This document shows, one piece after another, positions 9,001-59,746 of a stretch of 64,000 nt of DNA. A model generated the notes under the pieces. It ran no database searches. It saw only the letters and a list, made by a program, of their open reading frames with translations, and had not been told where the DNA came from. Source of the DNA: Pycnococcus provasolii (taxonomy: Eukaryota > Chlorophyta > Pseudoscourfieldiophyceae > Pseudoscourfieldiales > Pycnococcaceae); contig OW568875.1 of the NCBI GenBank assembly GCA_938743325.2, positions 310,001 to 374,000 of the forward strand. Direction: 5' to 3'. Numbering within the stretch: position 1 is the stretch's first letter; each line of letters begins with the position of its first letter. The position numbers were made by a program, and so were the translations under genes.

Positions 9001-12000
9001 GGTGACAATGTCGCCATACCCAAATGGGCGGATGGGTGCCACGAGTACGTGTTCCGCACCGTTGAGGTTGGGGGCGGGATCAGCGGAGAGGATCGACCAG
9101 TGCGTATAGGAGCTTGGCTTGACGGCCTGAAGCGTGGTGGGCTTTCGGATGAGCGTGGCGGTGCGTTACGGTACGTTACGTGCGTCGGAATTTGCATTAG
9201 TGCTCCGATGTGCGTTGTGAACGACAGTGGATTGGGGTTAGTGATGACGGCGGGGATGATGGAGAGCAGCGAGAGAGTGGAGAAGAAGAGCAGTGGTGGC
9301 GGCAAAACTGAGAAAAAGGAGGAGGAGGAGGAGGATGACGACGACGACGACGACGAGGAAGACGACGAGGACTTTGACGACTTTGACGAAGACACCTGGG
9401 ACGATTCGAGCAGCTCGGCATCCAGCTCTGCAACGCCTACACCTCGCTCTCTGTTTGGCAGCAGCGATACCGAAGCAGCGGCAGTTGCTCTTGCACGCCC
9501 ACCTTGGCGCGTGTATCGCTCGCGCGATCCGACAACAACGCTTGTTGCATCTACATCTTCTATTTCACATCGATCGAAGCGCTTTGCACCGCTGGGATCA
9601 GATGCGCTTGTCACGCCGAATCAGGTTTGCCTACTCGACGCGGACCCGCGCATGTGCCGCGCCACAGGAAATCAGGCGATTTCAGCTATGGTTGAGCGCT
9701 TGGCTCTACGTGTCAGTGACCCTGGACTGCAGGTAGATGGTGGAATTGCCGTTCCGATTCTGAGGCATGGGCAGCGCGGCGGCTTGGTGAACTTCGATAA
9801 AGTTTGTGAGCTGCGCCTGCTCGCGCCGACGGCGGCACCAATGCCCACCGCTCGCATTCTAGGAATGCAGGTAGGCCGTGACACAGCACTGGACGATTCG
9901 GCAGAACGTGCCGATGCTGAGGCGGGGGATCGCCTGATTGCAGCAACCGCACCTGTGGGAGCTCGGCCGGAGGCTTGCTGGCGTGTTCACGTCACGCCGC
10001 GCATAGCATTTTCCAATTTGACGTCGCGATGTGTACTGCGCCTGGAGCCTGGCACGCTTTCAGATTCCTCGGTGACAGGATTCGCGCCAACGCAATCGAT
10101 GCGCCCAGGAGAGCGCACGTGCATTGATCGCACCGCAAGACTTAGGGAGAGCACACGGTTGAGCCGATTTGGCGCCAGGGTCGCAATTTTGTCAACCGAC
10201 GGCACTGATACCGTCGTTGGTCGCTCCGCACCTTTCGATGCTGGAATGCTGCTTCGCTTACCGGGCAAGCCGACGGTCCTTCCGATTGCGCCCATTAACA
10301 GTGAGGGTGAAAACTTGCCAAAGAGCATTATGGTGAGCACTTTCCACGATGGAGGGACTGGAAGCTTGACCATTGCGGCAGTCACCACATCCCCGAGGTC
10401 TTCCTACGAGATTGCAAATTTGAGTAATTCGCCGCTTCGTTTCCGAGATGTGGAGAGCGACGATGATGTGGTTTTATTACCCTTTTCGTGCAAGGGGACG
10501 AGCGCGTCGGCGATAGAGATTTCTGTCGACGGCGTTGAAATCCCCGCAGGCATGGAGACGACGACGCGAATCGAGCTAGGCATGCTCGCTGCTTGTGCGT
10601 CGGATGAGGAGCACAAACACGACGCACGTTACCCAGGACCGAATGTTGGTTCTGGTGGTGAGTTGTCGACGACAATGCTCGCCTCTGTATCCATGGACAA
10701 CGACGGCGTGCTGATGCCAGCAAGACTTGAAATTCGAGACAGATCGGACACTCCGGCGACGCTTCGGATGTGGTACCAAGACGATCCCACGTCGTCGTCG
10801 TCGGTCCTGTTGGGCCAGTCGGCGGCTGATGCGCTGAAAGGGAAAGGGCGGGTCGGCTCGCTTCTCCTAAGGGTAAAAATGCCTGGAATTTCGCTCAGTC
10901 TGGCGGGTCGCGACCGCGAGAATGAAACTGGGGTTCGTGAAGTGGTTTATCTAGGCTTGCAGCGTATCGAGGCAACGATCGCGTCATCGATGCCCCGAGC
11001 AAATGGAGCGTCTTTAACCAGCATCGGCCTGCGGCTGGACGACTTGCAGCTTGATGACACGCTTTTTACTTCTGCATGCCCAGTCGTGCTTCGCGCTGAT
11101 CCGACACATGAGCGCCTCTTCGGTAGGCACGCACCCTTGATCTCGCTACGGATCGCATCGGAGCCCTCTGAGGTTCACGAACTATGTGCGAGCGTGAGAC
11201 AGAAGCTTCTACTTGAGCTTCATGAGACGGTCCTGTGGCAGATTGTTGCATTTGTGAACGAGCTCCGTCTTGATTCGCTGAGTGGCGACGACAACGTCGA
11301 GCCACCACCCCCGCAATCATTCCGGGTACGCATGCTGGAGACGCCAGGTTTCGGGCTAGGATTAACGTTCAAAGCAGATCCCAATGGGCGACCGGAGGGC
11401 ATGGGTGGTTTGATCTCTTCACTCGGACTTTCCTTCGCAAACATTTCAGGAGCCCGCATTCGACTCACAGGCACATTCAGCGAGACGCCACGCGAGGTGA
11501 CATCCGAGACCATCGTGACTGAGCTGGTGAACAGAGCCGTGGCTGATGTGAAGAAGCATCTTCTCAGGGTGGTCATGGGTGTTGACCTCAAAAACGCTAC
11601 ACAGGGCTTGCTTGGCACAGTCAGTGATCAACTAGCCAACTTAGGTGACGCGAAAATGTCTGATGTTCTGGGAGGAGGAGGTGAGGAAGGCGGCGCATCG
11701 TCATCTCGCGGCTCGTCACATCGCTCGGGTGCTGCAACGAATCGATCTGACACGGCTACCGGTGGAGTCAAAGCGGGTGTGAATGCCTTTGCCGGTGGCT
11801 TATTGAAAGGCGTCACTGGAATTTTTTCCAAACCACTTGAAGGCGCTCGCAAAGGTGGGGCTGTTGGATTTGCGGAAGGCGTCGTGTCAGGTGTCGTAGG
11901 CGCAGGGGGCAACATCGCATCAGGTGTTGTGGATCTGGCGAGTAACACAGCAGGCGGCATCGTTGGCGAGATGGGCAGTGCCATGAACACGATCGCGGTG

Positions 12001-12516
12001 ACTGTCGGAGCGAAGCGCGCAAGCGCCCCTCCTGGAAATCGGCTACGCGAACCTCGGTGCGTTGGGGCTGATGGCGCACTGCATCCATACAGCGCGCACG
12101 ATGCCGAAGGTGTCCGGTTTATGCTGAACGCGGTAACCGCTGGCGCATTGGGAGGGCCACTGCTCCGCGTTAATGCTGGTTTGGGTCTCAACAACGAGCG
12201 TTATGTGATGCACGAAGTTTTGCGTCCCGCCGGAGGTCCGATCGCGCTCTACACGACTATGCGTGCAGTTCGTTTGGATATCAAGGATGACGAATTTGTG
12301 ATCGTTTGGAATGTGCCATGGAACAAAGTGTCGGGTGTTGATGTCGGCATGCAGCAGCAGCGAGAGAGGAGAGTAGGGAGAGGTGCTGGTGGTGGCTCAC
12401 AGCTCCCAATGGTGATTGTTGCAAGTTCGTCGGAACGCCACGAGCTTCTGTGCGAACGAGGTCTAGAGCAAGCGGAACGTCTATGCAAGGCTGCAGAGGA
12501 GTTGATGCATGAATAA
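1..12516 (+). CDS. VPS13: VPS13-family bridge-like lipid transfer protein, 5'-partial
   Basis: The frame is open from base 1, so the gene enters from the left and its N-terminal chorein part lies outside; about 4170 residues are visible. Known role of the family: rod-like proteins at membrane contact sites that move bulk lipid between organelles. Seen in order (residue numbers in this fragment): a PH-like domain (~373-480), a beta-helix-like stretch (~1350-1440), three Vps62-type repeats (~1760-2080; motifs VWEPVPKEGY, IWRPEAPPGF, LWRPVAPEGY), a VAB/SHR-binding region (~2600-2950, with TPYTIRNETGVPLEV), an acidic run (~3103-3130), an ATG2_C-like segment (~3838-3990, with GVTGIFSKPLEGARKGG) and a C-terminal PH-like domain (~4030-4167). 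The PH/beta-helix/Vps62 insertions resemble the plant-type VPS13 layout. There is no intron over 12.5 kb. The next gene ends convergently 39 bp away. Confidence 0.9.
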   Translation, partial: TTTALPFAHVSFSVGDSSLVLQTRSANNPSSSHAVIRGFCRELKTSAVLKMGDVMRANASMKVGSYGIVDAKDAPVLNAEASESRDSAVHLAIAYNPEASANTPSPPDARVALEVAPCAIILQRKTLDDAKKWFEEGWNAPAPGSVQDTAGTGEAGISTDALQSAIASRAAATAAAAAAVASDAWKTRPRYELSVVLAAPKLFIPTNAISRQTGATSVLLVDLGQFEIATQPACISELFNDKPRTDDKAYDGFAVCGGGMSVSLLSVQATGSDLASVLAAPNGASKHAQRSSVLRSGTLNIVAAVCASPSPPGDRPPIAVAAEFPSLHITASPQRIRSLIDVGDALQAVDTDDADATSAVSNPAPPPAPEESPLATGEAHVLIRSSFGTPPEWQPHRLSLVGTTLELECAKGSSKLALGKFSRALLVESSWVGDSESCVALIPNSSASTPVNRASLYYESEITVLRFENEGDADAWLRNLTLIISEIEAARASLKDATGGITDEEATLTQAPSQTMRLLAGLGEVRFQLVADTNDDVEAGVMTLAIAGAHLDTKLGTRTAVNLAVLSATIADDTSTSQEVRRFILGTGDSQSTAPMRQSVSIDSFKFRKALSRKFTVSSISGEETFRTAREHQDSDDDDDEFVDAPEEMSEELPWLSDLRQRAASSSGDSAPWLSVWYDAASYDSSEVQTPDGPAKAFVDARMRLWTVNVSRPFVRSLTSVALDCADAAKSDKTQPPTSTVEATLTVPDFKSSLGPAPPPLPPPPSSAETHQARASARSIANLAIAAQWEGMLVCLDIEPGAFAPAVRGGAAVRNFAPARLASASLSHLGVSAITREGGAWRASAHMGGIQLEDYTVPEMSACRRVISGFTERGKVLHASAEHPTTRELFAGEVAPRASLACGELQIAFAARFFKMLRQYAEGLTLPPKANISDERATTPSDDAVNEPGELKTTHSPQDGASGVAATSQDATFARWILDVSLDAPKIALPRSTSYSKSSGGESLVVDLGMLHLVGTPILCAYDAKDSAPAVRYELSMDGLQASLVDLKVDTVSGDASLFGLDGSPKLLVVADIQTAGGMLATSVRLDAPALDLGVTHHLFHTAAATIADNLSEEPPRRFLTWADFNPTVTSRSVRTSSQTVPSAETAAVSSSDTNEPSRFSLDLALTLPSIALTLYQGNSRNVSLAGLAIVGASVRAGMDPYTETMLSAAVSNITLVDSVRNVTVIGQAEKALSSMVSELEPWQSPANLDDLPPPPLFMLDARVPNPSAGISQSTSQRSSGRSSKSRRLPQSTDAAYSGMGKSTRAIVVLHAPRVDLEIAFVTDITTYFVQSGTTSTKGTSSSDGGGLRDRDVVLRLAEPLTLTDDVNLSSQRRLVVGADGPGEYVIDGHSQYALLIPAIAADDARDGVMVDVLKDCVLRLKGTHLVEVQGSGRELALKAEHFVAQASLEEGARIVVESAPPSSSMITNDGAIGSMAAIASDAGLSPSDALPRVPEMSVDLAPSQPPPQAGPSPATSTILALAEIRGVEVVVRASEPDANANTGGKRDEAHALVRIMNISATYRTDTGKVGAKTALNLEALSFDVCKRANGLALDSAAPPLLAPCSAVVRWDEEADPTPNRRLTAKFTELSVSANAQVLSDAASLASRAAEGLAAIGAAGKARGGFEAMSGFAQPCVRYRAVEPGPPTSLDAVGTNAVLSSAPPLVRAFWPEGVSGQKPLGCVLSPDGSARPPAMQAYTVPMDGSSSRFPLRFELLGEVDVGNGHAYAVWEPVPKEGYAVSGYAFTAPGDPPPPVNALCCLRSTLATPLHRTPGLVSGRIGVPLTSDTMLTLRRIVNPSMGIAVEGSDGQTRAVYGLLARRCAPDAAAIASAAAVALAAAQPPPAVFPVSEEGFPAGPPMAPTGAFRRMWWSRGLERRNGNVPSASIWRPEAPPGFRIYGDVLVEDYHPPVFVVVPEWSPPLTAEPTGFELVWSDGSGGNNTPSSDHVRPSKTGPAGGFALWRPVAPEGYVAVGLFASAHAMVQPDVKLAACVRRDCLDPSARPQGQQRMLWSRPARSGAYPSIVLWGSSDEQGTFWATRDERQAPPSGAPRIPTYWKLTEEARERAIAPLPPPPPLSISIDIERLLTVVRTRAVSPDLIRLELKRTMMRGMLGMAGESDSDSGGMRVSVALCICIYALNPEANQARGTYEPLLEDLDVALNFESPSDATSTIERRITPGVSFASRATVTCAGDVRISASSPCIAHALKSLVDLQAATAAREHELAKHQASQRLDNLKRKEGERRTGDSPANALFLLTGRDMGCALHARATKPEALAGTGGNELSAGSCAEVPSVNDGGLYVLESSSASSNRSLLLRDDGLSDISRDTAVASLAHIDRLFFVHIASCTWQPGPDAIVRLGGCIRATATAELCIHRNSAEHLIGGVRTMRGSAKAKSLQTGEWTILFDESATFEARCDDVMSVKITVDADSTYERTHPGVDAAMLSGILTLRVDDCACEHALHLDCASESSAPAADATLHVTGTKGVSLRNISKTGPPVDTPPTNLSMKMHTATSLGVSLALSESGPWTDVPRGPELECILAVERHNQRPAHVLMSYHEPSGDGKKMAMVEITTPYTIRNETGVPLEVMLIQRANTSRTMEACEGHVEFEMYENQRFQPLQGWGGKGYLLSTETRMYGSRTCSRKNSFDTWDGALEHICHQVLVDGTHKWAPNESWRVDMNGGVDADGWSYATTFLQNDIKKYPPPSSCGKRMPQSFVRRRRWVRGCVPAEASSQASSRGGYQEGGGFSSGGANLGVVTPGETMHVPLWAVEAQGAEVSLRPAGETFEWSEEAPTGGALAHRGSLRIDRPAAGTALLFCEPADGAVMTSSSAWWLIAEVRRRTVTQRGAKPAAPERSSEDFLDITTPRTGSAHTLVVRAPVRLRNLLPMRVDVEASTGYAGGATPRSEGMEADPGALVDLHRVDPRRGVYLRAWPSPEQGSPWQYQGRPFLVMPPLEGKIRGDNVAIPKWADGCHEYVFRTVEVGGGISGEDRPVRIGAWLDGLKRGGLSDERGGALRYVTCVGICISAPMCVVNDSGLGLVMTAGMMESSERVEKKSSGGGKTEKKEEEEEDDDDDDDEEDDEDFDDFDEDTWDDSSSSASSSATPTPRSLFGSSDTEAAAVALARPPWRVYRSRDPTTTLVASTSSISHRSKRFAPLGSDALVTPNQVCLLDADPRMCRATGNQAISAMVERLALRVSDPGLQVDGGIAVPILRHGQRGGLVNFDKVCELRLLAPTAAPMPTARILGMQVGRDTALDDSAERADAEAGDRLIAATAPVGARPEACWRVHVTPRIAFSNLTSRCVLRLEPGTLSDSSVTGFAPTQSMRPGERTCIDRTARLRESTRLSRFGARVAILSTDGTDTVVGRSAPFDAGMLLRLPGKPTVLPIAPINSEGENLPKSIMVSTFHDGGTGSLTIAAVTTSPRSSYEIANLSNSPLRFRDVESDDDVVLLPFSCKGTSASAIEISVDGVEIPAGMETTTRIELGMLAACASDEEHKHDARYPGPNVGSGGELSTTMLASVSMDNDGVLMPARLEIRDRSDTPATLRMWYQDDPTSSSSVLLGQSAADALKGKGRVGSLLLRVKMPGISLSLAGRDRENETGVREVVYLGLQRIEATIASSMPRANGASLTSIGLRLDDLQLDDTLFTSACPVVLRADPTHERLFGRHAPLISLRIASEPSEVHELCASVRQKLLLELHETVLWQIVAFVNELRLDSLSGDDNVEPPPPQSFRVRMLETPGFGLGLTFKADPNGRPEGMGGLISSLGLSFANISGARIRLTGTFSETPREVTSETIVTELVNRAVADVKKHLLRVVMGVDLKNATQGLLGTVSDQLANLGDAKMSDVLGGGGEEGGASSSRGSSHRSGAATNRSDTATGGVKAGVNAFAGGLLKGVTGIFSKPLEGARKGGAVGFAEGVVSGVVGAGGNIASGVVDLASNTAGGIVGEMGSAMNTIAVTVGAKRASAPPGNRLREPRCVGADGALHPYSAHDAEGVRFMLNAVTAGALGGPLLRVNAGLGLNNERYVMHEVLRPAGGPIALYTTMRAVRLDIKDDEFVIVWNVPWNKVSGVDVGMQQQRERRVGRGAGGGSQLPMVIVASSSERHELLCERGLEQAERLCKAAEELMHE

Positions 12517-34248: not shown

Positions 34249-34605
34249 GGATGAGCACGAGCACGAGCACGGCAGAATGAAACCCGGCTGGGGGGATTTG
34301 TGAATTTGAAAATAAAAGGTTTCGCGCACAAAGCAGACGTTTGCGCAAAGCAGGCGCCAAAAGTAAAAAAACCACAGGCAGGAAAATTATTCGGGATGAC
34401 TTCTATGAGCGCAGAGACGGATCCCCAAAAGGCGGGGGAAAATAGTCCCGCGTGTATTTTAGCTTTTTAGGATTCTCAGACGGGTTTATTATGAGGACAG
34501 AGGCGGATCCCCAAAACATTTTTTACAACAAGTTTTGTGACTTTTCAATTTTGTCATTTCATCTTTCGCCAGTCGTCATCGGTGTCGAATCCGCTGACTT
34601 TTAAC
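34249..34605. other. Divergent promoter region with paired 19-bp direct repeat
   Basis: This lies between the CAF-1 start (34248) and the RCC1-like start (34606). CAGAGACGGATCCCCAAAA near 34412-34430 is repeated with one change (CAGAGGCGGATCCCCAAAA) near 34499-34517. The pair may be a shared regulatory site; no coding frame is supported. Confidence 0.45.
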
Positions 34606-35643
34606 ATGGCTGCTGCCATGGAAAGTGCCGCACATGGTAGGCTGCGAGACGACGCCATCGCCGTCTGGCGCGAATGGCTCGTCGTCGTGCACAAACCACG
34701 ACGACTCGCAATCGTCAAGGAGCGCGACGAGCACCGCAAACGACTTTCGCGCGCCAACGCGAACATTGCAGCGGATTCAGATTTCTCGCTCGCTCTCCGG
34801 AAGAACGGAAGCATCGCGTGCTGGGGCCGGAACGACGAGGGCCAGGCGCCTCCGGACGGCATACAAGGTGACTTCGTCGCCATCGCCGCGGGTGTGCTTC
34901 ACTCGCTGGTGCTACAACGCGACGGAAGCATCGCGTGCCGGGGCGCCAACTACGACGGCCAGGCGCCTCCGGACGGCATACAAGGTGACTTCGTCGCCAT
35001 CGCCGCGGGTGGCGCTCACTCGTTGGCGATCCGACGCGACGGCAATATTGCGTGCTGGGGCTACAACAATCACGGCCAGGCACCTCCCGACGGAATACAA
35101 GGTGACTTCGTCGCCATCGCCGCGGGTTTCAGGCACTCTCTGGCGATCCGACGCGACGGCAGCATCGCGTGCTCGGGCTGCAACGACGACGGCCAGGCAC
35201 CTCCGGACGGCATACAAGGCGACTTCGTCGCTATCGCCGCGGGTGGCGGTCACTCGCTGGCGATCCGACGCGACGGCAGTATTGCGTGCTGGGGCTTGAA
35301 CAACGCCGGCCAGGCGCCTCCGGACGGCATACAAGGCGACTTCGTCGCCATCGCCGCGGGTGACTATCACTCGTTGGCGATCCGACGCGACGGCAATATT
35401 GCGTGCTCGGGAAGCAACGGCTTCGGCCAGGCGCCTCCGGACGGCATACATGGTGACTTCGTCGCCATCGCCGCGGGTGACTATCACTCGCTGGCGCTGC
35501 AACGCAACGGCACTATTGCGTGCTGGGGACGCAACGGCGATGGCCAGGCGCCGACTCCAGAAGACGACGAGGAGTACGAGGTGGACGACTACGCCACTCT
35601 CAGCGCCAACTTTTCCTTCATGACCGATGTGCACATCCTGTAA
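34606..35643 (+). CDS. RCC1-like seven-repeat beta-propeller protein
   Basis: A 345-residue protein from the ATG at 34606 (an earlier non-ATG frame start is ignored). After a helical N-terminus of about 55 residues, seven RCC1/BLIP-II-type repeats follow at a 39-residue period (first one truncated), each with an AIAAG...HSLAIRRDG..ACWG...GQAPPDGI core. Seven blades match a closed RCC1 propeller. The 117-bp units are nearly identical at DNA level, including third positions, so they arose recently or are homogenised. Some repeats have Ser for the usual Trp (ACSG). RCC1-like proteins act as GEFs or protein-interaction scaffolds; nothing here fixes a partner. Confidence 0.8.
   Translation: MAAAMESAAHGRLRDDAIAVWREWLVVVHKPRRLAIVKERDEHRKRLSRANANIAADSDFSLALRKNGSIACWGRNDEGQAPPDGIQGDFVAIAAGVLHSLVLQRDGSIACRGANYDGQAPPDGIQGDFVAIAAGGAHSLAIRRDGNIACWGYNNHGQAPPDGIQGDFVAIAAGFRHSLAIRRDGSIACSGCNDDGQAPPDGIQGDFVAIAAGGGHSLAIRRDGSIACWGLNNAGQAPPDGIQGDFVAIAAGDYHSLAIRRDGNIACSGSNGFGQAPPDGIHGDFVAIAAGDYHSLALQRNGTIACWGRNGDGQAPTPEDDEEYEVDDYATLSANFSFMTDVHIL
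34788..35555 (+). repeat. 117-bp tandem repeats inside the RCC1-like gene
   Basis: About six full and one partial near-identical 117-bp units, each one 39-residue propeller blade. Differences are concentrated in the variable loop after the ACWG motif. Confidence 0.85.
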
Positions 35644-35899
35644 CTTAACTAGTCGTTGTAATAATTTTGCCACGTACGTTGTTGTGGTTGCTGAACGAAC
35701 TCCAAGCCTAGGGTGACAAATCCAACCAATCATGTCACACATGATTATGATGGGGCGTACGTACAATCGAGTTGCATAACATAACAATTCTACCGGCATT
35801 TTGATTTTATGTAGTTAGCTATTGTACTGAAGTACCTCTCTCTTTTTCTTAATTAGTCTGGTAAAAAGATTTTATTACATCACAGCACAGCTTTCTTAA

Positions 35900-38800
35900 T
35901 TAAGGTTCTTGTAATTTCGATAGCTCATCCACGAGTTCGTGCATGGACTCCTGCATGCGCGCCTTGCGCGTCGCATCCTCGCACGCGTCCACCCACCCAG
36001 CAACCTGCCGGTAAATGCGACCACGCTGAAGCGCAAAGTGCGCGCGAATCGCATCCTCGAAGCCTGGCTTGGGCTTTCGCAGCTGCGCAACCATCGCCCA
36101 ACGAACCGTCTGCAGACGAATCTCCTCGTTGTACTCGCGAGACTTGCGATCGCCGTCGTCCGTGCCGCGCAGGCCATCGGCACCTGGCTCGTTGAACCAA
36201 GGCTCGTCGACGAGGATCATCGCTTGGATGCTCACCAGCACCTGGTAGAGCGAACTCTGCGAAGGGTTCCACTTCTCGAATTCCGCACCTCCGTGCCACG
36301 TTCCCAAGAGCGACAAGCACACCTTACCGTCAGCGTACAAATTCGGGTTGAAGCGAATGCGACCGCCGCCGGTTGTCACGAATTGCACCATAGGAGGCTT
36401 GTGAGGGTAGTCAGAGGGAAAGAAAAGGTCAAAGACGAAGCATCCAAGCGCGTACGGCGTGCCCTCCGGCCCGACGATGAGCGCGCGCATCTTGTCGGGA
36501 CGTGCGCCATCTTGGCGAAGCAGCACGCTGCTTTCCAGAGCCACGGGGAGACCGCCAGATGCGCTCAGACTTTGGACTTCCTTCGCGAGCTTGCGAAGCT
36601 TCTGCTTTTCGTTGCCCGCGGGCTGGTTGGCAAGATCCTCGAACAGGCCGTAGTACTGTGGAAGACCGCCGTCGACGTCGGCGAAGGCGAGTTGCCCCAT
36701 CGTCGATTCGTAGCGGCGCCTCCACACGCCGTCGGCGTCATCGGAAGCCTCATCCGCAAAGGACGGGATTGCATGCGAGGCTGCCGCAGCCTCGGATCCT
36801 TCTCCTCCTCCTGCTGCCGCCGCTACTGCCGCTGACGCTCCGGACGCCCCACCCTTCCTCGCCTGCGCGGCGTTGATCAGATCATCGAGGCACTCGTGAT
36901 GCCTCGGACCACCAAGATTCTCCTGCTTCATCGTCGACCCAGCCTTACGTAGGATCGCCGCGTCGAAATCAGGCTCGGCGGCGACGGCAGCCGCAAACGC
37001 ACCACCCGCGGAGTGCCTCGTCGCGATCCGCAGCGCAAACTCGACGATAGACAGCAGCAGCTCGTTGGGGCGGAAGTGGAAGCGCTCAGGCTTCTTCACC
37101 TGCAGGTTGGATCCCTTCGGACCCACGAGAAGCTCGAGGAAGTGCACGACAGCGTACGCCGCAGGACCGACCGTGGTCTCGTGCAGGAAAGCCTCGCCCA
37201 CGCCCTGCGCATCCGCGAGTAGATTCAGCAGGCGCAACGTCGTCCTCGCGTACGCCATGAAGCCCTTCGCGGCACCCTCCTGGCTTCGCAGGAAACTTTC
37301 CTTGTCCGCACGCTCGGCGGGAGGGAGCGCCTTCCACTTCGCCTCGTCTGCCATCGCCGTTTCCATCTCGTGAATGCTCACGAGCCGCTCCAGGGAATCC
37401 TCGAGCAGATACATGAGAGCGCCCAACGCCGCGGAGGCGAACTGCGCGAAGAGGTCGCGGCCATTCTGCGTCGCAAGCAGCTCGGAGATGGATGCGCAGC
37501 ACTCAGGATACTCCCAGATGGTCTCGATGAGCCGTGCAGCGTCGTTGCGCGACGCGAACTTGTCAAAGTCCTCCGCATCCACGTCTATGCCCTCGACGGC
37601 GTCCATTGCCACGTACGCCGACATCAGCGCGGGCACGATACGGCGCAGTACGTCGGCGTTGCCGAGCACGGCACCCACAAGCGCGTCGTGCGCGCTCGAG
37701 CCTGCTCCCGTGCCAAGGCTTCGAGCGCCGTGACGGGTACTTCGCAGGAAATTTTCAAGCATCTCGGTAAGGCGAGCGTGCACGATGGGAGAGCGCACGA
37801 GGTCGCGGCGCAGCAGCAGCGCCGTGGCGCACTCGACGAGCACCGTCACCGGGAGCGCGGTGGAGCCAGCGCCAGCGAGAAGGTCTGCACGGTTCCACCG
37901 AAGGACGTGCGTCACCCACATCCCGAGATTCTTTGCCACCGATTCAGGAATGCAGGCGTATGCCTCTCGAACAGCCTCTGGATTAGGGTGGTCTAATAAC
38001 GACATAAGCCAAACCGCGGTGATCAGCGAGAGTCTGCACATATCAACAGCCATACTGGGATCCAGTAGCTGCGCGCTGCCGCAGTCGCACTCCGCATTCC
38101 ACTCCGGATCTGCATTGAGGTCCAACCCCTCGCGCTTGCTGTGGCGCTCTTTGGCACGTAGGCGTCGAACAAAGGAAATCGCCGCCGGCATCACGCAGAT
38201 TTGCGTCGCTTGCTGAGCGAGCAGGAATACTTCGACGACGAAGTGCGGAGGCTGCATCGTTTCCGCAAGGCGAGGCGCAAAGAATGGCGTGGATGGCGGC
38301 GAAGGAAGGGCAATGGAAGAGGGAGCTGCCGCACGTCCAGCGAGCGTGCCCTCTCCCGCAGGTGATGAGAGCCGCCTTGGCTGCGTGAGAGGCGCCTCAC
38401 GCAGGCGTGCGAGATGCTGCGGCTTGCCATCTAAAAATGGCCGGCAGAAGCGCAGGCACGTCGCCGCCACTCCAAGCGCGAACGCATCGCTCGATCCCGC
38501 GAGCGCGCCGCGTGCCAAGGACGCCGCAGCGGTCGATGCTCCAATTTTCGTGCGTGCCTGCGACGTGCCTACGGCGGCTGCGAGCCATGCTAGGACCGTT
38601 TCCTTGTAGTCTGGCCCAGCGCCAGCGAGCATGCGAAGCATGGTGTGCGCCGCACCGTGCGTGCGCTCAAACACAGATGCTAAGTTGTTGATGATGCGTT
38701 CGCGTTCTCCTGATTTAGGGTATCCCCGCAAAGACAAGAAAGTTTTCGTCGCAGCAGAGGGCGTCGGGCCGTTCGGAGTCGTCGGCAGCGTGCCAACCTT

Positions 38801-40006
38801 AAGCACAGGCGCGAGCACGCTGCGCTTCTCGAATTCCAGGCCGGTGATGGTGTGTGCCCGCGACACTTCGGCGTGCAGCTCCTTCCCGAGCAGGCGCAGA
38901 ATTGCCGGTGAGCTGATGAGCGTCGACACCGCGTAAAGGCGAGAGTCTACTGAGGCGAGGTCGTCGAGAGGGACGTCGTTGAAATCCTTCAATGAGGAGA
39001 CGAGCAGGTCGCGCCAGAATTTTTCCAGCTCTGCCGAAGAGGACACGGAGGTAACGGCGACCATATCAGCGATGAGAGCTTCGCTAGCTTGGGCTGAGGT
39101 GAGGAGGTCCCGAAAGACGTGCCTGTGCTGTCCACCTTCAAAGAAAAGATCCTCCTCGTCATCGGAAGCGAGCAGTTCCGTGAGGATGGATGCGGCTGTG
39201 TAGGCGGCGAGGCGCACGAGCGGTACGTCTGCGGATCGCATCTGCGCCACAGCTCGTCCGTGCACGAGGGCGAGTATCCGCGTCTCGGGCATGCCCTGCG
39301 CGAGAGTTCGCCGCTTGCTGAGCAGCGCGCGCACGGTCGACTCCATCTGTCGTTTTGTCACAGCGCCCGCTGTGGATGGCAGAAGCAGCGAGTTGGGCGA
39401 CGGCGTCGCTGACGACGACGCCATCTGCACGCCCATGGCTGTGCTGAGGGCTGCCAAGGCTGCGTCGTCGATCGGCGCGGACTCAGGCTGGTCAGAAGCC
39501 GCTTGCATCCACGCCGGTAGCGCGGGTGGTGGTGCGTACTCTTGTGGTGGCGCCCTTGCGCGTTTCGTCGACGACCTAACCCTAGCGTGCTGCTGCTGCT
39601 GCTGCTGCTGATGTTGTTGTTGTGACGCTGGTTGCGGGTTCGCATTTGCATTTGCACTTGCATTTGCGTGAGGTGGTGGTGGTTGTGGTTGTGGTGGTGG
39701 TTGTTGTCCTAATGAGAGTGCAATAGCCGCTTGTAGCTCATAGTCCATGTCAGCTGATGCAAACATGGATGCAGATGCCGAAGCACCAGAAGCACCACCA
39801 GAAGCATCCCCATGAGAAGCATCCTCCTGCAAGCCAGATACAGGACCAGGCACAGCAACAGGCTGCTGCTCCAAGGTACCTTCCCCTTCACCATCACCTT
39901 CACCGACACCGACACCGACATCTTCACCACCGAGTGACATCGCGATCGCCGCCGCAAGATCCGCATCCATATCTTCTTCTTCAAGACCTTGAAAGGAGTC
40001 CGCCAT
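35900..40006 (-). CDS. Fusion of a Ufd2-type E4 core with a BIRC6-type E2 (UBC) domain
   Basis: A 1368-residue protein in a single exon. Seen in order: two clear UIM-like ubiquitin-interacting helices (DMDADLAAAIAMSLG, residues ~12-27; DMDYELQAAIALSLG, ~86-100) and a weaker third (~175-195); a Gln-rich stretch; a long helical region with Ufd2/UBE4 core signatures (LRFCRPFLDG, and ~958-972 LLVGPKGSNLQVKKPERF followed by FRPNELLLSIVEFALRI); then, instead of the U-box that ends all E4 proteins I know, a full E2 fold (~1145-1310). The E2 carries the catalytic Cys1230 in ADGKVCLSLLGTWHG and the BIRC6/UBE2O-type extensions KWNPSQSSLYQVLVSIQAM, EPWFNEPGADG and SREYNEEIRLQTVRWAM. Role inferred: ubiquitin binding, chain elongation and conjugation in one chain. 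It is a non-split ORF, so the fusion is not an assembly of two genes on opposite frames. Upstream neighbour is the JmjC-like gene on the same strand. Confidence 0.88.
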   Translation of the reverse strand: MADSFQGLEEEDMDADLAAAIAMSLGGEDVGVGVGEGDGEGEGTLEQQPVAVPGPVSGLQEDASHGDASGGASGASASASMFASADMDYELQAAIALSLGQQPPPQPQPPPPHANASANANANPQPASQQQHQQQQQQQHARVRSSTKRARAPPQEYAPPPALPAWMQAASDQPESAPIDDAALAALSTAMGVQMASSSATPSPNSLLLPSTAGAVTKRQMESTVRALLSKRRTLAQGMPETRILALVHGRAVAQMRSADVPLVRLAAYTAASILTELLASDDEEDLFFEGGQHRHVFRDLLTSAQASEALIADMVAVTSVSSSAELEKFWRDLLVSSLKDFNDVPLDDLASVDSRLYAVSTLISSPAILRLLGKELHAEVSRAHTITGLEFEKRSVLAPVLKVGTLPTTPNGPTPSAATKTFLSLRGYPKSGERERIINNLASVFERTHGAAHTMLRMLAGAGPDYKETVLAWLAAAVGTSQARTKIGASTAAASLARGALAGSSDAFALGVAATCLRFCRPFLDGKPQHLARLREAPLTQPRRLSSPAGEGTLAGRAAAPSSIALPSPPSTPFFAPRLAETMQPPHFVVEVFLLAQQATQICVMPAAISFVRRLRAKERHSKREGLDLNADPEWNAECDCGSAQLLDPSMAVDMCRLSLITAVWLMSLLDHPNPEAVREAYACIPESVAKNLGMWVTHVLRWNRADLLAGAGSTALPVTVLVECATALLLRRDLVRSPIVHARLTEMLENFLRSTRHGARSLGTGAGSSAHDALVGAVLGNADVLRRIVPALMSAYVAMDAVEGIDVDAEDFDKFASRNDAARLIETIWEYPECCASISELLATQNGRDLFAQFASAALGALMYLLEDSLERLVSIHEMETAMADEAKWKALPPAERADKESFLRSQEGAAKGFMAYARTTLRLLNLLADAQGVGEAFLHETTVGPAAYAVVHFLELLVGPKGSNLQVKKPERFHFRPNELLLSIVEFALRIATRHSAGGAFAAAVAAEPDFDAAILRKAGSTMKQENLGGPRHHECLDDLINAAQARKGGASGASAAVAAAAGGGEGSEAAAASHAIPSFADEASDDADGVWRRRYESTMGQLAFADVDGGLPQYYGLFEDLANQPAGNEKQKLRKLAKEVQSLSASGGLPVALESSVLLRQDGARPDKMRALIVGPEGTPYALGCFVFDLFFPSDYPHKPPMVQFVTTGGGRIRFNPNLYADGKVCLSLLGTWHGGAEFEKWNPSQSSLYQVLVSIQAMILVDEPWFNEPGADGLRGTDDGDRKSREYNEEIRLQTVRWAMVAQLRKPKPGFEDAIRAHFALQRGRIYRQVAGWVDACEDATRKARMQESMHELVDELSKLQEP

Positions 40007-40280: not shown

Positions 40281-41741
40281 TCACGTCGCCTCGCTCGAAG
40301 CAGTCGTCGCACGCTCGCGCTCCCACCGCCGCTGCATGCGCATCGCCAAGAGGAGCCAGTCCTCGCGGGTGAGTCGCATCTCGTCGATAAGCGCCGCCTG
40401 GTGCTCCTCGAACCGTCGCGAGCGGCGCTCCTCCTCCTCCCTCTCCGCGTCACTCATAGGCAAGAAGGAGCACCACGCGGCGTCGCCCTCGCCCTCGGCC
40501 ATCAGCGCGGCCTCATAGTGCTCGTGTGTCGGCCACGCGAAAATCTCCGCGGCGCGGATCACACTGAAGTCAAACCTCGGGAGCGGCGCGTTCGCCGGTG
40601 GGGTGGTGCGCGGCACGAACACGCCGTGCGCGCCCGACGGGAAGATCAGGAGCATCTGCTTCGGACCGAGCGTGGCGACCTCGCCCACCCCGCGCTCGCG
40701 CAGAGTTCGCAGGAGCACTGCCAGCTCGTCGGCCGAGCGTCTGCCGACGTGGGTCGCAAAGAGGCCGACGAGGAGTGGGAGGAAGTGGAAGGTCGAAACG
40801 CCATCCACCTGATTGTAGAGGGTGAAGTGAGGTGGCACATGGACGTCTTGGTGGTACGGCGTGCAGTAGCCCTGAAGCTTCCAAATGAGGTACAAGCGGT
40901 GGTTGAGCCGCCAGCTCGACGGGTCGGGGTGCATGAGCTGGAGGTCGTCGAGCTGATGCATCAAGCCGTCGAGCAGCGGCACGGCGCTCTCCGCGGCGTC
41001 GGCCTCCTCCGCGTAGTGGAACGTCGTGTTCAACGAGCCGCACCCGCCGCGGCCGCTGTCGAGGCGATCCTTGAGCTCAGCCTCAAGCTCGTCGAGCTGC
41101 GCGCTCGCGTTGCCCTCGGTTTTGAAGTGGTTGGCACGCTGAACGCGGTAAAGAGACGCGCTTTTCTCCTTTGCGGCGAGTGAAGCCACCATCGGCATGA
41201 GAGAGGCCAGCGTCACGTCCTCTTTCGCTGCCCATTCGCGGATGAGGGCGCCTGAGAGGATGACGCCGCACTTGAGCTTCTCATGCCCGAATCGCCGGCA
41301 CGTCTCCAGCACCTCATCAAGGCTTCGCCCGTCAAGCCAAAGTTCGATGACTGCACTGGCAAACTGTGAACCTAGCTCCCATCGCGTGCCGAAGTCATCC
41401 GCCGCCGTTGTCTGCAATGTCCGCTGACGAAGGCGAAGCTGCTCGAGCTGGTCGTCACGGAGATCTGCGATGAGAGCCGCAATCCACTTGGCGCGCGGTG
41501 TACAGGCCCAGGCGTCACGTGTCTGATGCACCTCCTGTGCGGAGGCTTTCAGCAACGAGGAGAGCTCCGCCATCGAATGCACAGCAACGGTCGCGGCGGG
41601 TTTGAAACTCATTTCGAAATTCGTCGAATCTGAGAGCGATACGGTCGGTGCGTGAGCGATCGAGGAGGGCTCCGCGGGGGCAACTGCTGTGAGCGCGACG
41701 CGGCGCGCCGCCTTTGCTGGCCGGGCATTCTCAAGGGCCAT
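40281..41741 (-). CDS. JmjC/cupin-like Fe(II)/2-oxoglutarate oxygenase, tentative
   Basis: A 486-residue protein. JmjC-type enzymes hydroxylate or demethylate proteins using iron, oxygen and 2-oxoglutarate. The metal triad is present in order: His297-x-Asp299 in TPYHQDVHVPP and a distal His372 in LLIFPSGAHGVFV, with a family-like FTLYNQVDG between. The N-terminal ~230 residues are helical and have no recognised domain; the C-terminus is a charged helix. A Leu/Pro-rich stretch links the two His motifs. The 2-oxoglutarate-binding Lys is not obvious, so activity is uncertain. Starts 580 bp from the divergent EF-hand gene. Confidence 0.55.
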   Translation of the reverse strand: MALENARPAKAARRVALTAVAPAEPSSIAHAPTVSLSDSTNFEMSFKPAATVAVHSMAELSSLLKASAQEVHQTRDAWACTPRAKWIAALIADLRDDQLEQLRLRQRTLQTTAADDFGTRWELGSQFASAVIELWLDGRSLDEVLETCRRFGHEKLKCGVILSGALIREWAAKEDVTLASLMPMVASLAAKEKSASLYRVQRANHFKTEGNASAQLDELEAELKDRLDSGRGGCGSLNTTFHYAEEADAAESAVPLLDGLMHQLDDLQLMHPDPSSWRLNHRLYLIWKLQGYCTPYHQDVHVPPHFTLYNQVDGVSTFHFLPLLVGLFATHVGRRSADELAVLLRTLRERGVGEVATLGPKQMLLIFPSGAHGVFVPRTTPPANAPLPRFDFSVIRAAEIFAWPTHEHYEAALMAEGEGDAAWCSFLPMSDAEREEEERRSRRFEEHQAALIDEMRLTREDWLLLAMRMQRRWERERATTASSEAT

Positions 41742-42321: not shown

Positions 42322-45096
42322 ATGGGGTGCGGCGCATCCACCGACATTGATGCAAGGACCGGCGGCACTTGCTACACCGACGCCTCGGCGCCGCTTCCGG
42401 CCGGATCCCCGCGCAAGGAGAAAGGTGGTGATGTTCACACTCCAACTCCAAGCAAGCCCAAGGATGGAGATAAGGCGCCCGCGAAGCGCGACGCCAAGGA
42501 GGAAAAGACGACGACGACGACGACGACGACGACAGCTACGGCTGGTGCTGGTGACCAAGCAAAAACACAAGGAAAAGGTTTGAACAACAAACAAAGTCTG
42601 CGCTCGGCGATGTGCCTCGTGGGAGTGCCTGGAGCGGGACTCACGACGCAGGCAAAACTCGTCGAACAACGTCGGCCAGACCTTGTCGTCGTTGACGTCG
42701 GAGTGCTGCTGCGAACTGAGGTGGCGAAAAAGACGCCAACGGGCGCAGCCATCCACGCTCTCATCAGCGCCGGCGTGCTGGTGCCCGACCTCACTGTCGT
42801 TGACCTCGTCAAGCAAACAATCAACGAGCCTGACAAGAAGGACAAGGGCGTGGTACTGCTCGGATTCCCACGATCCATCGGACAGGCAAAACTCTTCGAG
42901 GAGCACGTCGTCACGCCTCTCAAAGTCATCAGCGTGGAAGTGCCAACCGACGTTGCCAGGGCGCGCCTCGACGCGCTCCCGTTCGAACCTGGCGAGAGCG
43001 CTGACTCGCGGATGGCCAAGGAGAAGAACTACCACGCAGGCACCGCCGCTGCGCTTGGACACTACGCAAGTCTGGGCAAGACAGCGAAAGTGGACGGCTC
43101 CGGTGACCCGCAGCAGGTGCACGAGAGCCTGATGGCGCACATTGCGGAGATGGACGAGCTGATGAAGATGGTGGACGAGTTCCACGTGGCTGACAAGGAT
43201 GGCAGCGGGGAGATTGACATGCAGGAGCTCAAGGACCTCTTCGTGGCGCACGGGCGCCAGCTGACGGATGCGGACATAAAGCGCCTGCTCGCGCAGTACG
43301 ACGAGGACAACAGCGGACTTCTCAGCTTCGAGGAGTTCGTCCCGCTCGTCCAGCGTGAGCTATGGATCCACGCCAAGCTTGAGGAGTCTAAGCGCCTCTT
43401 TGAGAGCGTCGACAAGGACAAGAGTGGCGAGATCGACACCAACGAGCTTGCACAGCTGCTCGCACTGCTCGGTCTGCCGAACGGCAAAGATGAGGTGGAT
43501 GAGGTGCAGCGCAGATACGACGTCGACGGCGGCGGCACGATCAGTTTCGATGAGTTCACCACTTTTATCAAGGAGAGCCTCGTTGACCTCACCGAGATGA
43601 GAGCAGCACTGGAGGCTGCGGACGCCGCTCAGCAGGAAGCCGAGTACGAAATGTCGTCTGGCACAGAGCTGCAGGTTACGAACCCGCCGGGATTCCTTGC
43701 AGAGGCGATGATTGCGCTCGTGGAAGAGAACCGGGGCGATCTGCAGCGCATGGTTGGCCTGGATACGAAGGAATCCGACACTCTCGCGGGCATCCTCGTC
43801 AAGCTCGTGCAGGACATGGTCTCGCTCGATAAGAACCTTGCCGAGGACCCGCTCGCCGCCTATCCTGCGGAGAATAAAGGTCGAGAGCTGCTGAAGGAAA
43901 TCGCGAACAAGAAGGGGTGGGACTGGAAGAACGCCGAGGGCGCCAAGCCAAACTCGCTGGAGGGGATGGATGAGTGGTACCACGCGGTGCGCGAAAGGCT
44001 AGGCATCGCCGACGGCGACATGGCGGACGTGATGGCCGCGGTGTTGAAGGAGAATATTGACAACGTGGACGCCATGTCCGAGAAGTTTGGCGCGGCTTTT
44101 GATGAGTGCATGATCGCCATCCTCGCGGGAATTGTGTGCTGGGATAGCAAGCTGATCGATACGGAGGCAATCATGGCGCTGGATGAGCCCGCCATCTTCG
44201 CGTTCAGCTTTGGCACGGGTGACAAGATCGGACCGGCACTTGAGATGGAGACTAAGGTGGGCCCGGGATGCGAGACGCCTGGCAAGACGAACGAGGGTCT
44301 TGCGGAGGAGATCAAGAAGATCTTGGCAGTGCGACCAATGCCCGTCTACGCACAGTGGGAGATTGCAGACGCCGTTTGCCACGGTGGCGACGGCCACCCC
44401 AGGCCCGAATCGTTCTGGGCATGGGATTTCGGAGATGCCGCGGAAGGTGGTGATCCGTCGAAGGCTGAGGAGTGGTATCAGCGGATCGAGAACTTCGAAG
44501 TTGCTGAGACGGGCGAGAAAGTGAAGGTGTACAAGTCGCTTCCCATCTGGCCCCTGGCTATTAAGAAGAAGCTTGTGGAGCACGACGCTCTTGCCGATGC
44601 TGGCACAATGAAGAAGTACTACCTCTCGACTGTGGGCGTGCTGCAGCAGAACCAAGAGCTCTGGGATACGGGTCTGGCAACGCGCCCGAAGAGCGTGATC
44701 ATCGTGGGGCAAATGGACCACGAGAAGCGTTGCCAGAAGCTCGTGAAGGACTTGGTGTTGCCGACGAAAAGTGGGGAGAAGGCGACGCTGGGGTTGCCCG
44801 CGGCGGAGATGCCTGTCTACCGCTTCTATCCCGATGACTGGTCGATGTATTCTTGCGATAAGTTTGGCTACGACCCAAAGTCAACGCAGAAGTGGACAAG
44901 GGCGAGGGCTCTCTACGTCATGCACGAGGCCACGGCTCGCGGCATGCAGTACGTTCGCGAGGACTTCGGCCCACTGCCCATCCACAAGGACCTTGTCAGG
45001 CGCAAGGCGCACGGGCAGGCGTTCGCCGCCGCCAAGCTCGTCACCAAGGATCAGAAGCTCGCGCAGCTTTTGGGACCGACGGCAGAGTGGGACTAG
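42322..45096 (+). CDS. Myristoylated adenylate-kinase-like/EF-hand protein with unknown C-terminal half
   Basis: A 924-residue protein. It begins MGCGASTD, a consensus N-myristoylation site with a Cys at 3 that could be palmitoylated, so a membrane-attached protein is likely. Residues ~98-270 resemble an adenylate kinase: GVPGAGLTTQAKLVEQ at the P-loop position and LLGFPRSIGQAKLFEE at the family GFPR position. The P-loop Lys is Leu (GAGLTT for GSGKGT), so catalysis is probably lost and the fold may serve as a binding module. Four canonical EF-hands follow (~287-420): DKDGSGEIDMQE, DEDNSGLLSFEE, DKDKSGEIDTNE and DVDGGGTISFDE, all with acidic first and last loop positions. The rest (~470-924) has no family I recognise. 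Calcium sensing at a membrane is the inferred role. Confidence 0.6.
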   Translation: MGCGASTDIDARTGGTCYTDASAPLPAGSPRKEKGGDVHTPTPSKPKDGDKAPAKRDAKEEKTTTTTTTTTATAGAGDQAKTQGKGLNNKQSLRSAMCLVGVPGAGLTTQAKLVEQRRPDLVVVDVGVLLRTEVAKKTPTGAAIHALISAGVLVPDLTVVDLVKQTINEPDKKDKGVVLLGFPRSIGQAKLFEEHVVTPLKVISVEVPTDVARARLDALPFEPGESADSRMAKEKNYHAGTAAALGHYASLGKTAKVDGSGDPQQVHESLMAHIAEMDELMKMVDEFHVADKDGSGEIDMQELKDLFVAHGRQLTDADIKRLLAQYDEDNSGLLSFEEFVPLVQRELWIHAKLEESKRLFESVDKDKSGEIDTNELAQLLALLGLPNGKDEVDEVQRRYDVDGGGTISFDEFTTFIKESLVDLTEMRAALEAADAAQQEAEYEMSSGTELQVTNPPGFLAEAMIALVEENRGDLQRMVGLDTKESDTLAGILVKLVQDMVSLDKNLAEDPLAAYPAENKGRELLKEIANKKGWDWKNAEGAKPNSLEGMDEWYHAVRERLGIADGDMADVMAAVLKENIDNVDAMSEKFGAAFDECMIAILAGIVCWDSKLIDTEAIMALDEPAIFAFSFGTGDKIGPALEMETKVGPGCETPGKTNEGLAEEIKKILAVRPMPVYAQWEIADAVCHGGDGHPRPESFWAWDFGDAAEGGDPSKAEEWYQRIENFEVAETGEKVKVYKSLPIWPLAIKKKLVEHDALADAGTMKKYYLSTVGVLQQNQELWDTGLATRPKSVIIVGQMDHEKRCQKLVKDLVLPTKSGEKATLGLPAAEMPVYRFYPDDWSMYSCDKFGYDPKSTQKWTRARALYVMHEATARGMQYVREDFGPLPIHKDLVRRKAHGQAFAAAKLVTKDQKLAQLLGPTAEWD

Positions 45097-57643: not shown

Positions 57644-59746
57644 ATGGTCAGCAGTCACGACCCTCGGGTGCCGACCTCTTCGAAGTCAGGCTCGAGAGGG
57701 GCGAGTGGTGGTGGTGGTAACGGTGGTGGTGGTAGTGGTCGAAATTCACGCACGTCCAATCCTGCTCGCTCCAACTCTGGGAATTCTCAAGGTGGCAGAA
57801 TCAAACTGTCGTTAAAAGAAGAAGGTCTGGAAGAAGAAGAAGAAGTGTCGCCGACGGGACTCACGCGACTACAGGCGGTGTACAGCGACGACGATGAAGA
57901 TAAGTACGAAAGCGCAGGAAGCGACTACACGTACACGTACTCGTACTCCGACTCAGAACCGGAACCGGACGAAGAGGAGCTCATTCGGGAGACGGAGAGA
58001 GAACTGAGAGAGGCGGCGGAAAGGCGAAGGAACGGTGAGACGGGCGACGATGCACAAGACGAAGACGAAGACGAAGAACCAACAACAAGCACAGAGCCAC
58101 GTGGAATGGCGGACGATGCTACGGAGCTCACGCAAGTGGATGTGAACGTCGTTGACGACGGGGAGAGCCGTTCGCCCGCCGCCGGTACGCGTGACGAAGG
58201 CGAGGCGGCGGCGGCGACGACGGCGACGACGACGACGGAGGCAGCGGCGGCGGCGGTTGTGGACGCGCAATCGCCAGAACCCGAAAACGTCACCGAGGGG
58301 GAGACAACCGCAGCCAGCCCCGTCGCGGACGGCGACGCATCAGCGTCACCGACCCAGGTGCAAGAGGCAAATGCCGCTTGGCCGGATGATCGCGGCGAGC
58401 GAAAAAGTACACGGCCTAAGTCAACGGCGAGCCTATTTTTTTGCTGCCTGACGTCGCCCTCGACGCGAAGCAGCAAGTACACGTCCGCTGACCCGCCGAC
58501 CCGTGGTGAGACGAACGGCGCAAGCGACGGCACGGAGACCACCGAAAACGGCGCCTCCGATACGGCGACCGCGACAGCCACCCCGACCCCGAACGAGCGC
58601 AGCGACGCGGCGGCGACGACTACAAGTCCGACGACGCCGGCTTCTGGGAAGAATTCCAAGGCCGAGCGGGCGACGAGCCCCACGAGCCCCTTCTCGAGTA
58701 TACGCAAGCGCGCCTCGGCGTTTCGCGAACGCAATGCCAGCAGGGCGGAGAAGGCTGCGAGCCCGCCAAGCGTGTACAAGAAGGTGCAGCGACTGCGTGG
58801 CGAGGGCTCAGCAGCGTTCGGCGCTGGTGACTACCGCCGAGCGGTCAACACGAGATTGCAGGCAATCAAGATGGTGGAGGCGCACACATCAGCAACGGAT
58901 GGGGCGGATGACCAGGAGCAGGCAAAGCAGCGCAACTTTTCCGCCTCAAAGGTGCTCGTGGAAGAGTACACGGCGTTGGCAGATGCGTACGTTGGCCTCG
59001 GCGACCTCACCCTTGCGCTCAAACACGCCAATCGCGCGTACGAGCTGGGCGTCGAGTGTGACTACGGGCGCGGGTCCGCGTTTGCCAGCTACGTCCTCGG
59101 CCAAACGCACGGCCGCTTGAACGAGCACAAGCACGCCATCTCCTATCTGAACAAGGCGCTTGAGACGTTCGATCGCATCAATGACCTCGGTGGGTCCACG
59201 AGCTGCTTGATCGAACTTGCCGTCGAGTACTCGTCCATCGACAGCACGTCAAGCCTGCGGCACGCGGACGAGGCGATTGAGAAGGCGATCAAGCTGCAGG
59301 AGCAGACGATCAAAAGCGCGGGCGGTCGCAGCGCGAAGGACAGGCGCATTTACCTAGCTTACAACGCAAAGGCGATCGCCCTTCAGTCAGTCGGGCGTCA
59401 CACGGACGCCGTGGAGTATTACGTCAAGGCGTACGAAGCTTCTAAGCAGTGCGAGGATGCAGGTTCGATGTGCCGTTTCCTCCTCAACATCACGCACACG
59501 TATGCGATGGGTTTGAAGGACCTCGACAGCGCTTGCATTTGGCGCACGCGCTACTTCGAACTCATGGAGGAGAGCTACAGCCGTTCGCTTCCAGGGACGT
59601 GCGCCATCTGCCTTGACGATATGGAGAAGGACCAGAAAGACATTGAGGCACTTCCGTGCGGACATGTCTATCACAACGAGTGTTTGGAGGAGCTTCCGCC
59701 GCAGGAGCTTGGCACATGTCCGCAGTGCCGAATCCGTCCAGCTTAA
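57644..59746 (+). CDS. TPR-repeat RING-finger protein (probable E3 ubiquitin ligase)
   Basis: A 700-residue protein. A long N-terminal half (1-370) is Ser/Gly/Glu-rich and probably disordered; it includes an acidic (Tyr/Ser/Asp-rich) patch at ~85-110. TPR-type helical repeats follow at about 395-620 (LVEEYTALADAYVGLGDL, ALKHANRAYEL, AISYLNKALETF). The C-terminus is a RING-H2: CAICLDDMEKDQKDIEALPCGHVYHNECLEEL...CPQCR, with all eight ligands in C-x2-C...C-x-H-x2-H-x2-C...C-x2-C order, starting at ~652. RING proteins bring an E2 to a substrate. TPRs would bind the substrate. Promoter has telomere-like arrays. Confidence 0.9.
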   Translation: MVSSHDPRVPTSSKSGSRGASGGGGNGGGGSGRNSRTSNPARSNSGNSQGGRIKLSLKEEGLEEEEEVSPTGLTRLQAVYSDDDEDKYESAGSDYTYTYSYSDSEPEPDEEELIRETERELREAAERRRNGETGDDAQDEDEDEEPTTSTEPRGMADDATELTQVDVNVVDDGESRSPAAGTRDEGEAAAATTATTTTEAAAAAVVDAQSPEPENVTEGETTAASPVADGDASASPTQVQEANAAWPDDRGERKSTRPKSTASLFFCCLTSPSTRSSKYTSADPPTRGETNGASDGTETTENGASDTATATATPTPNERSDAAATTTSPTTPASGKNSKAERATSPTSPFSSIRKRASAFRERNASRAEKAASPPSVYKKVQRLRGEGSAAFGAGDYRRAVNTRLQAIKMVEAHTSATDGADDQEQAKQRNFSASKVLVEEYTALADAYVGLGDLTLALKHANRAYELGVECDYGRGSAFASYVLGQTHGRLNEHKHAISYLNKALETFDRINDLGGSTSCLIELAVEYSSIDSTSSLRHADEAIEKAIKLQEQTIKSAGGRSAKDRRIYLAYNAKAIALQSVGRHTDAVEYYVKAYEASKQCEDAGSMCRFLLNITHTYAMGLKDLDSACIWRTRYFELMEESYSRSLPGTCAICLDDMEKDQKDIEALPCGHVYHNECLEELPPQELGTCPQCRIRPA

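Follow-up and report, generated by a model that had tools for sequence, protein, structure and literature searches.

Descriptions of Ufd2-type E4 enzymes of the ubiquitin system give them a U-box, by which a separate E2 enzyme is recruited. A gene of the green alga Pycnococcus provasolii raises the question whether such an enzyme can carry its E2 in its own chain, as its frame swaps the U-box for an E2. The gene lies in a stretch of 64,000 nucleotides (contig OW568875.1, positions 310,001 to 374,000, forward strand), here called the window, to which all coordinates refer. In this study, we describe the domains of the encoded protein, their order, the conservation of the catalytic residue and the continuity of the coding frame. 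On this sequence basis we propose, with a probability of roughly 60%, that its product is a self-contained E4-E2 enzyme, with an E2 of the BIRC6 type standing in cis for the U-box and the borrowed E2.

35900-40006, minus strand: the whole gene, one frame of 1368 residues, with the ATG at 40006 and the stop codon at 35900-35902.

The Ufd2-type core

An initial annotation of the locus had proposed a single polypeptide with a Ufd2/E4 core and a BIRC6-type E2. Both parts were found in the one frame, the core as a Ufd2P_core match with an E-value of 3.3e-79 and the E2 as a match of 242.7 bits to BIRC6. The core had been placed at residues 420-1040; the Pfam model extends it to residues 398-1047, so that Ufd2P_core similarity covers the whole of the proposed range.

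36866-38815, minus strand: Ufd2P_core, residues 398-1047 (Pfam E 3.3e-79, model positions 1-627 of 628).
38816-39364, minus strand: pre-core region, residues 215-397, possibly the counterpart of the N-terminal body of Ufd2 (a weak assignment).

Scored on the whole protein, Ufd2P_core reaches 267.4 bits, the cut-off being 20.4. The protein was also compared with PDB sequences by phmmer, and the best 60 of the 288 matched sequences were inspected; among these, yeast Ufd2 scores 60.6 bits over residues 788-1049. When residues 215-1052 were searched alone, all four matching PDB sequences (E<=0.1) were Ufd2, the yeast Ufd2 match (E 3.5e-16) being confined to the late core, and no BIRC6 chain was found at this threshold. 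Residues 61-390 gave no Pfam match above cut-off, a stretch resembling a ubiquitin-interacting motif (UIM) aside.

Structure models were built with AlphaFold without alignments and have a mean predicted local distance difference test (pLDDT) score of 46.1 for residues 215-1052 and of 37.1 for residues 1050-1368, the latter model not being used further. The model of residues 215-1052 consists of helices throughout. A Foldseek search with it against the PDB returned 936 matches at E<=10, and the six at E<=0.001 are all Ufd2 chains, aligned over 832-991 columns with TM-scores of about 0.3 and root mean square deviations of 30-36, as obtained with a low-confidence model. These matches weakly suggest that the Ufd2-like body takes in residues 215-397 as well. 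At such TM-scores and deviations, the fold search can do no more than corroborate the sequence result.

The BIRC6-type UBC module

The C-terminal part of the protein resembles the ubiquitin-conjugating (UBC) module of BIRC6.

35942-36691, minus strand: BIRC6-type UBC module with C-terminal extension, residues 1106-1355 (phmmer similarity to BIRC6).
36317-36319, minus strand: codon of Cys1230, the cysteine expected to be catalytic; the surrounding NPNLYADGKVCLS is aligned with NPNLYNDGKVCLS of BIRC6.

A complete UBC fold with Cys1230 as catalytic residue had been predicted. In agreement with this, Pfam detects UQ_con at residues 1169-1274 (E 1.8e-22), and Cys1230 is aligned with the catalytic site of BIRC6. 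Among the best 60 PDB sequences, the first eight are all BIRC6, matched over approximately residues 1106-1355 with up to 242.7 bits, while the first UBE2O sequence scores 148.0 bits and the first UBE2Z sequence 107.9 bits. Identity to BIRC6 (3ceg alignment) amounts to 122 of 247 residue pairs, and to 93 of 153 columns in the central UBC part. Conserved are the catalytic cysteine, the NPN motif, the NPN...DGKVCLS surroundings and the C-terminal extension. Since the similarity runs past the UBC domain to about residue 1355, the whole C-terminal module of BIRC6 is, judged by sequence, present here, beyond a generic UBC fold.

With the catalytic cysteine, the NPN motif and the C-terminal extension conserved, the E2 looks active. 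Alternatively, this part might be a non-catalytic, UEV-like UBC domain that binds ubiquitin or partners, and a weak UEV match is on record (17 bits with the whole protein, 22.1 bits with residues 1106-1368, at a cut-off of 27). UQ_con, however, is far stronger, and a conserved catalytic cysteine in NPN...DGKVCLS surroundings is not what a non-catalytic domain would lead one to expect; we regard the UEV-like alternative as most improbable.

In E2 enzymes of the UbcH5 type, the phenylalanine of the motif YPFKPP is gripped by RING and U-box domains. The equivalent position in the present protein is His1202, and in the aligned BIRC6 it is occupied by serine. A histidine at this position fits an E2 that does not depend on a U-box. 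BIRC6 and UBE2O work without a separate RING ligase, and the molecule names of the PDB matches include 'Dual E2 ubiquitin-conjugating enzyme/E3 ubiquitin-protein ligase BIRC6' and '(E3-independent) E2'. The E2 domain of the algal protein is probably U-box-independent.

Absence of a U-box

Ufd2-related proteins carry the U-box at the C terminus (PMC3087547, in the excerpted text). The late-core match in yeast Ufd2 stops at residue 865-887, depending on the chain, and in Ufd2 the U-box comes next. Here the UBC module occupies that place, as the initial annotation had held.

36692-36865, minus strand: Ala/Gly/Ser-rich linker, residues 1048-1105, at the expected U-box site (by composition; coding score positive).

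The linker contains 17 Ala, 9 Gly and 7 Ser in 58 residues. Pfam gave no U-box match in the whole protein at E<=1, and none in residues 1042-1164 at E<=10, where HMMER filters remove most matches above about 0.1. The possibility that one of the other frames hides a U-box was considered and rejected: none appeared (E<=1) in the ten other stop-to-stop frames of the minus strand with at least 45 residues that reach into 35300-37200 and are located between 34915 and 37502. Pfam is able to miss a U-box, since Ufd2P_core is the only domain shown for snail ufd-2 (PMC6548493, in the part excerpted).

Continuity of the reading frame

The frame of 1368 codons from ATG to stop sits within a stop-free stretch of 1376 codons. 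Its coding character was followed with a codon log-odds score, which was trained on 12 other open reading frames of the window (2 of the 12 without Pfam match) and compared over all six frames in sliding windows. The gene frame ranked first in 43 of 44 windows, the single exception being residues 541-600, which are Ser/Pro-rich by eye. At residues 91-150 and 511-570 the score was slightly below zero, with the gene frame still the best.

This result bears on the possibility that the frame is accidental, i.e. that two neighbouring genes, one for an E4 lacking the U-box and one for a free E2 that begins at Met1103, were joined by an assembly error or by missed splicing. Met1103 is indeed an in-frame ATG just ahead of the BIRC6-like part, and around the linker 6 GT[AG] and 11 [CT]AG words are found, counts that stand without a chance comparison. 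Against such a junction, no stop codon interrupts the 1376 codons, and in the three windows across the linker (residues 1021-1080, 1051-1110 and 1081-1140) the gene frame is best, with 0.20, 0.21 and 0.38 bits per codon. GC content in these windows is 0.63-0.68, compared with 0.37-0.56 in six intergenic stretches, the one directly after the stop codon having 0.37. On the minus strand between 35700 and 40300, AATAAA occurs twice, once before the ATG and once past the stop codon, and never inside the frame.

35871-35876, minus strand: AATAAA, a possible polyadenylation signal, 24 nucleotides after the stop codon.

Moreover, the donor consensus GT[AG]AGT, a generic one that may not be the organism's own, is found nowhere in the gene, and several of the neighbouring genes consist of one long frame each, in one case of 4171 residues. 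Among the neighbours with eukaryotic matches are a VPS13-like protein, a class I aldolase, a homogentisate dioxygenase, an AFG1 ATPase and a CAF-1 subunit A; from these we infer that the source genome is that of a gene-dense, intron-poor eukaryote, splice sites having been considered for the E4-E2 gene alone. A split into two genes had been thought conceivable between about 36550 and 36850, and coding score, AATAAA and splice-word inspection of this DNA gave no sign of a gene boundary. As the linker keeps coding-type codon usage and AATAAA is missing from the frame, a hidden two-gene or chimeric origin is unlikely by sequence, and the accidental frame set out above appears quite improbable.

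N-terminal UIM-like motifs

Two short segments ahead of the core, DMDADLAAAIAMSLG (residues 12-26) and DMDYELQAAIALSLG (residues 86-100), resemble UIMs.

39929-39967, minus strand: first UIM-like motif, at residues 14-26 (20.9 bits for Pfam UIM when residues 10-34 are scanned alone).
39704-39745, minus strand: second UIM-like motif, at residues 88-101 (16.1 bits for Pfam UIM when residues 82-106 are scanned alone).

The claim that two UIM-like helices precede the core stood in part. Pfam reports two UIM stretches with 23.5 bits, above the cut-off of 21, when residues 1-110 are scanned alone; in the whole protein the score falls to 13.0 bits, below it. Residues 1-60 alone gave 18.4 bits, and residues 61-140 alone gave no UIM match. 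When residues 1-220 were shuffled, at least one match to the UIM pattern was obtained in 258 of 100,000 shuffles and at least two in 9 of 100,000, a test that inflates significance because the pattern was written after the motifs had been seen. Judged by their sequence, the two motifs are probably UIMs, of a marginal kind.

The motifs are relevant to the main alternative, in which the protein would be a BIRC6-like E2/E3 hybrid that ubiquitylates unmodified clients. The Ufd2 body would then be a mere scaffold to which proteins bind, such as Cdc48 or shuttles of the Rad23 type, and the protein would not serve to extend chains. It would accord with a UBC module that is nearest to BIRC6, and with the U-box-independent role of yeast Ufd2 in the stabilisation of Yap8 (PMC4582114, as far as excerpted). 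Two UIM-like motifs, marginal as they are, point instead to clients that already bear ubiquitin, and we consider the hybrid rather unlikely.

Relation to known enzymes

With Ufd2, UBE4A and UBE4B the protein shares a complete Ufd2P_core. Unlike them, it has no detected C-terminal U-box, has a UBC module at that place and carries UIM-like motifs at the N terminus. BIRC6 (BRUCE/Apollon) provides the nearest UBC module and has the C-terminal extension in common; the layout also resembles that of BIRC6, where an armadillo scaffold ends in a mobile UBC domain, with the Ufd2 body as the scaffold here. In contrast to BIRC6, with approximately 4,900 residues, the protein has 1368, and BIR and WD40 domains gave no Pfam match in it (E<=1). 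The UBC modules of UBE2O, an E3-independent E2, and of UBE2Z come next and clearly lower among the best 60 PDB sequences (148 and 108 bits against 242). UBE2O and UBE2Z have other accessory domains. By its sequence, then, the protein is outside the Ufd2/UBE4 family as defined by the U-box and yet has the family core, and it is not BIRC6, for want of a BIR domain, and yet has the E2 type of BIRC6.

Relatives were sought in viral contigs (with the whole protein, a part of the UBC, the late core and two two-row alignments as queries) and in prokaryotic genome contigs (with the whole protein and a part of the UBC), and no true relative was found in either. These scans used two to six short peptide patterns each and, the collections being viral and prokaryotic, have little bearing on eukaryotes. 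The sole locus listed, in a viral contig (L001:8001-8153; 35% over query residues 37-83), was taken as a chance match; its frame of 297 residues shares the string GAEFEKWN and does not read as E2-like. Plasmids and phages gave no match by tblastn (E<=1e-5), and NCBIfam nothing near its cut-off.

That no protein with this domain order has been described, as the initial annotation supposed, agrees with our searches of open-access full text: no Ufd2P_core-UBC fusion is described in the articles listed, subscription literature, supplements, UniProt and InterPro lying outside their scope. The architecture may already exist in databases. The sole listed paper with both Pfam names, Ufd2P_core and UQ_con, refers in its excerpted text to separate proteins of a snail (PMC6548493). 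In the main text, as excerpted, of a eukaryote-wide survey of ubiquitin-system architectures (PMC4327156) Ufd2 is not mentioned, and in that of PMC2705460 neither ubiquitin nor Ufd2 nor the U-box is.

Neighbouring genes

In tail-to-tail orientation to the E4-E2 gene, 34537-35643 (plus strand) encodes an RCC1-type repeat protein. Its repeats are near-identical by eye (APPDGIQGDFVAIAAG...HSLAIRRDG), which suggests a recent tandem expansion. Directly upstream of the E4-E2 gene, on the same strand, 40281-41741 (minus strand) holds a frame of 486 residues without Pfam match (E<=0.001), in which an HQDVH motif recalls 2-oxoglutarate/iron oxygenases by eye. The frame at 42322-45096 (plus strand, 924 residues) combines an adenylate-kinase-like domain (residues 104-255 of the 929-residue stretch scanned) with EF-hands (to residue 421), the remaining approximately 500 residues being without Pfam match (E<=0.001); its product begins with MGCG, and by eye lipidation is possible. 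The product of 57644-59746 (plus strand), with TPR repeats and a C-terminal RING finger (zf-RING_2, E 1.7e-10), is likely a further ubiquitin ligase of the window. At 1-12516 (plus strand), a VPS13/Vps62-like protein is encoded by one open frame of 4171 residues, cut at the window start, which suggests an intron-poor genome. The window gave neither an Rfam family at gathering score nor, with ARAGORN, a tRNA.

Proposed mechanism and its assessment

In yeast Ufd2p, a K29-linked chain is bound via two N-terminal loops far from the U-box, the trunk is armadillo-like and the U-box binds the E2. A variant lacking the U-box does not rescue the sensitivity of the ufd2 deletion to oleic acid and acid, and the authors ask how ubiquitin is passed on from the U-box-bound E2 to a client far off at the other end (PMC5303827, for all these points in its excerpted text). 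This question may have moved on, given that PDB entries of 2025 contain, by title, Ufd2/Ubc4-Ub with K29-linked chains. BIRC6 has armadillo repeats and a C-terminal UBC domain that is highly flexible, too much so to be seen (PMC10827748, as excerpted).

For the algal protein we infer charging, substrate preference, chain extension and linkage as follows. The UIMs and the Ufd2 body would hold a client that already bears ubiquitin. The E2 domain would be charged by E1 on Cys1230 and, borne on the linker, could reach the ubiquitin of the client and add more in cis, whereby the U-box and a separate Ubc4-type E2 would become unneeded. We see an even chance that the protein is a natural one-polypeptide E4-E2 of this kind, which is charged by E1 and extends or branches chains on clients held by UIMs and Ufd2 body, without U-box or separate E2.

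Several points weigh against a self-contained E4-E2 enzyme. In the whole protein the UIM score lies below the Pfam cut-off, the early core is not matched to yeast Ufd2 by phmmer, and the confidence of both structure models is low. The viral, prokaryotic, plasmid and phage collections yielded no homologue with this domain order, in searches of low sensitivity. Finally, a possible miss by Pfam slightly weakens the statement that there is no U-box, although another domain fills its position.

Implications

The novelty, as far as sequence tells, is a domain swap between two known ubiquitin enzymes, which would alter how an E4 gets its E2. If the proposal of an E4-E2 enzyme is true, a Ufd2-type body would be able to bring a client into place for a tethered E2, and the protein would offer a compact single-chain test system. 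It would also be a second armadillo-type scaffold, besides BIRC6, that ends in the same kind of E2, which would speak for this type of E2 being a portable catalytic module. Working as it looks, the protein would be a self-contained machine for lengthening ubiquitin tags.

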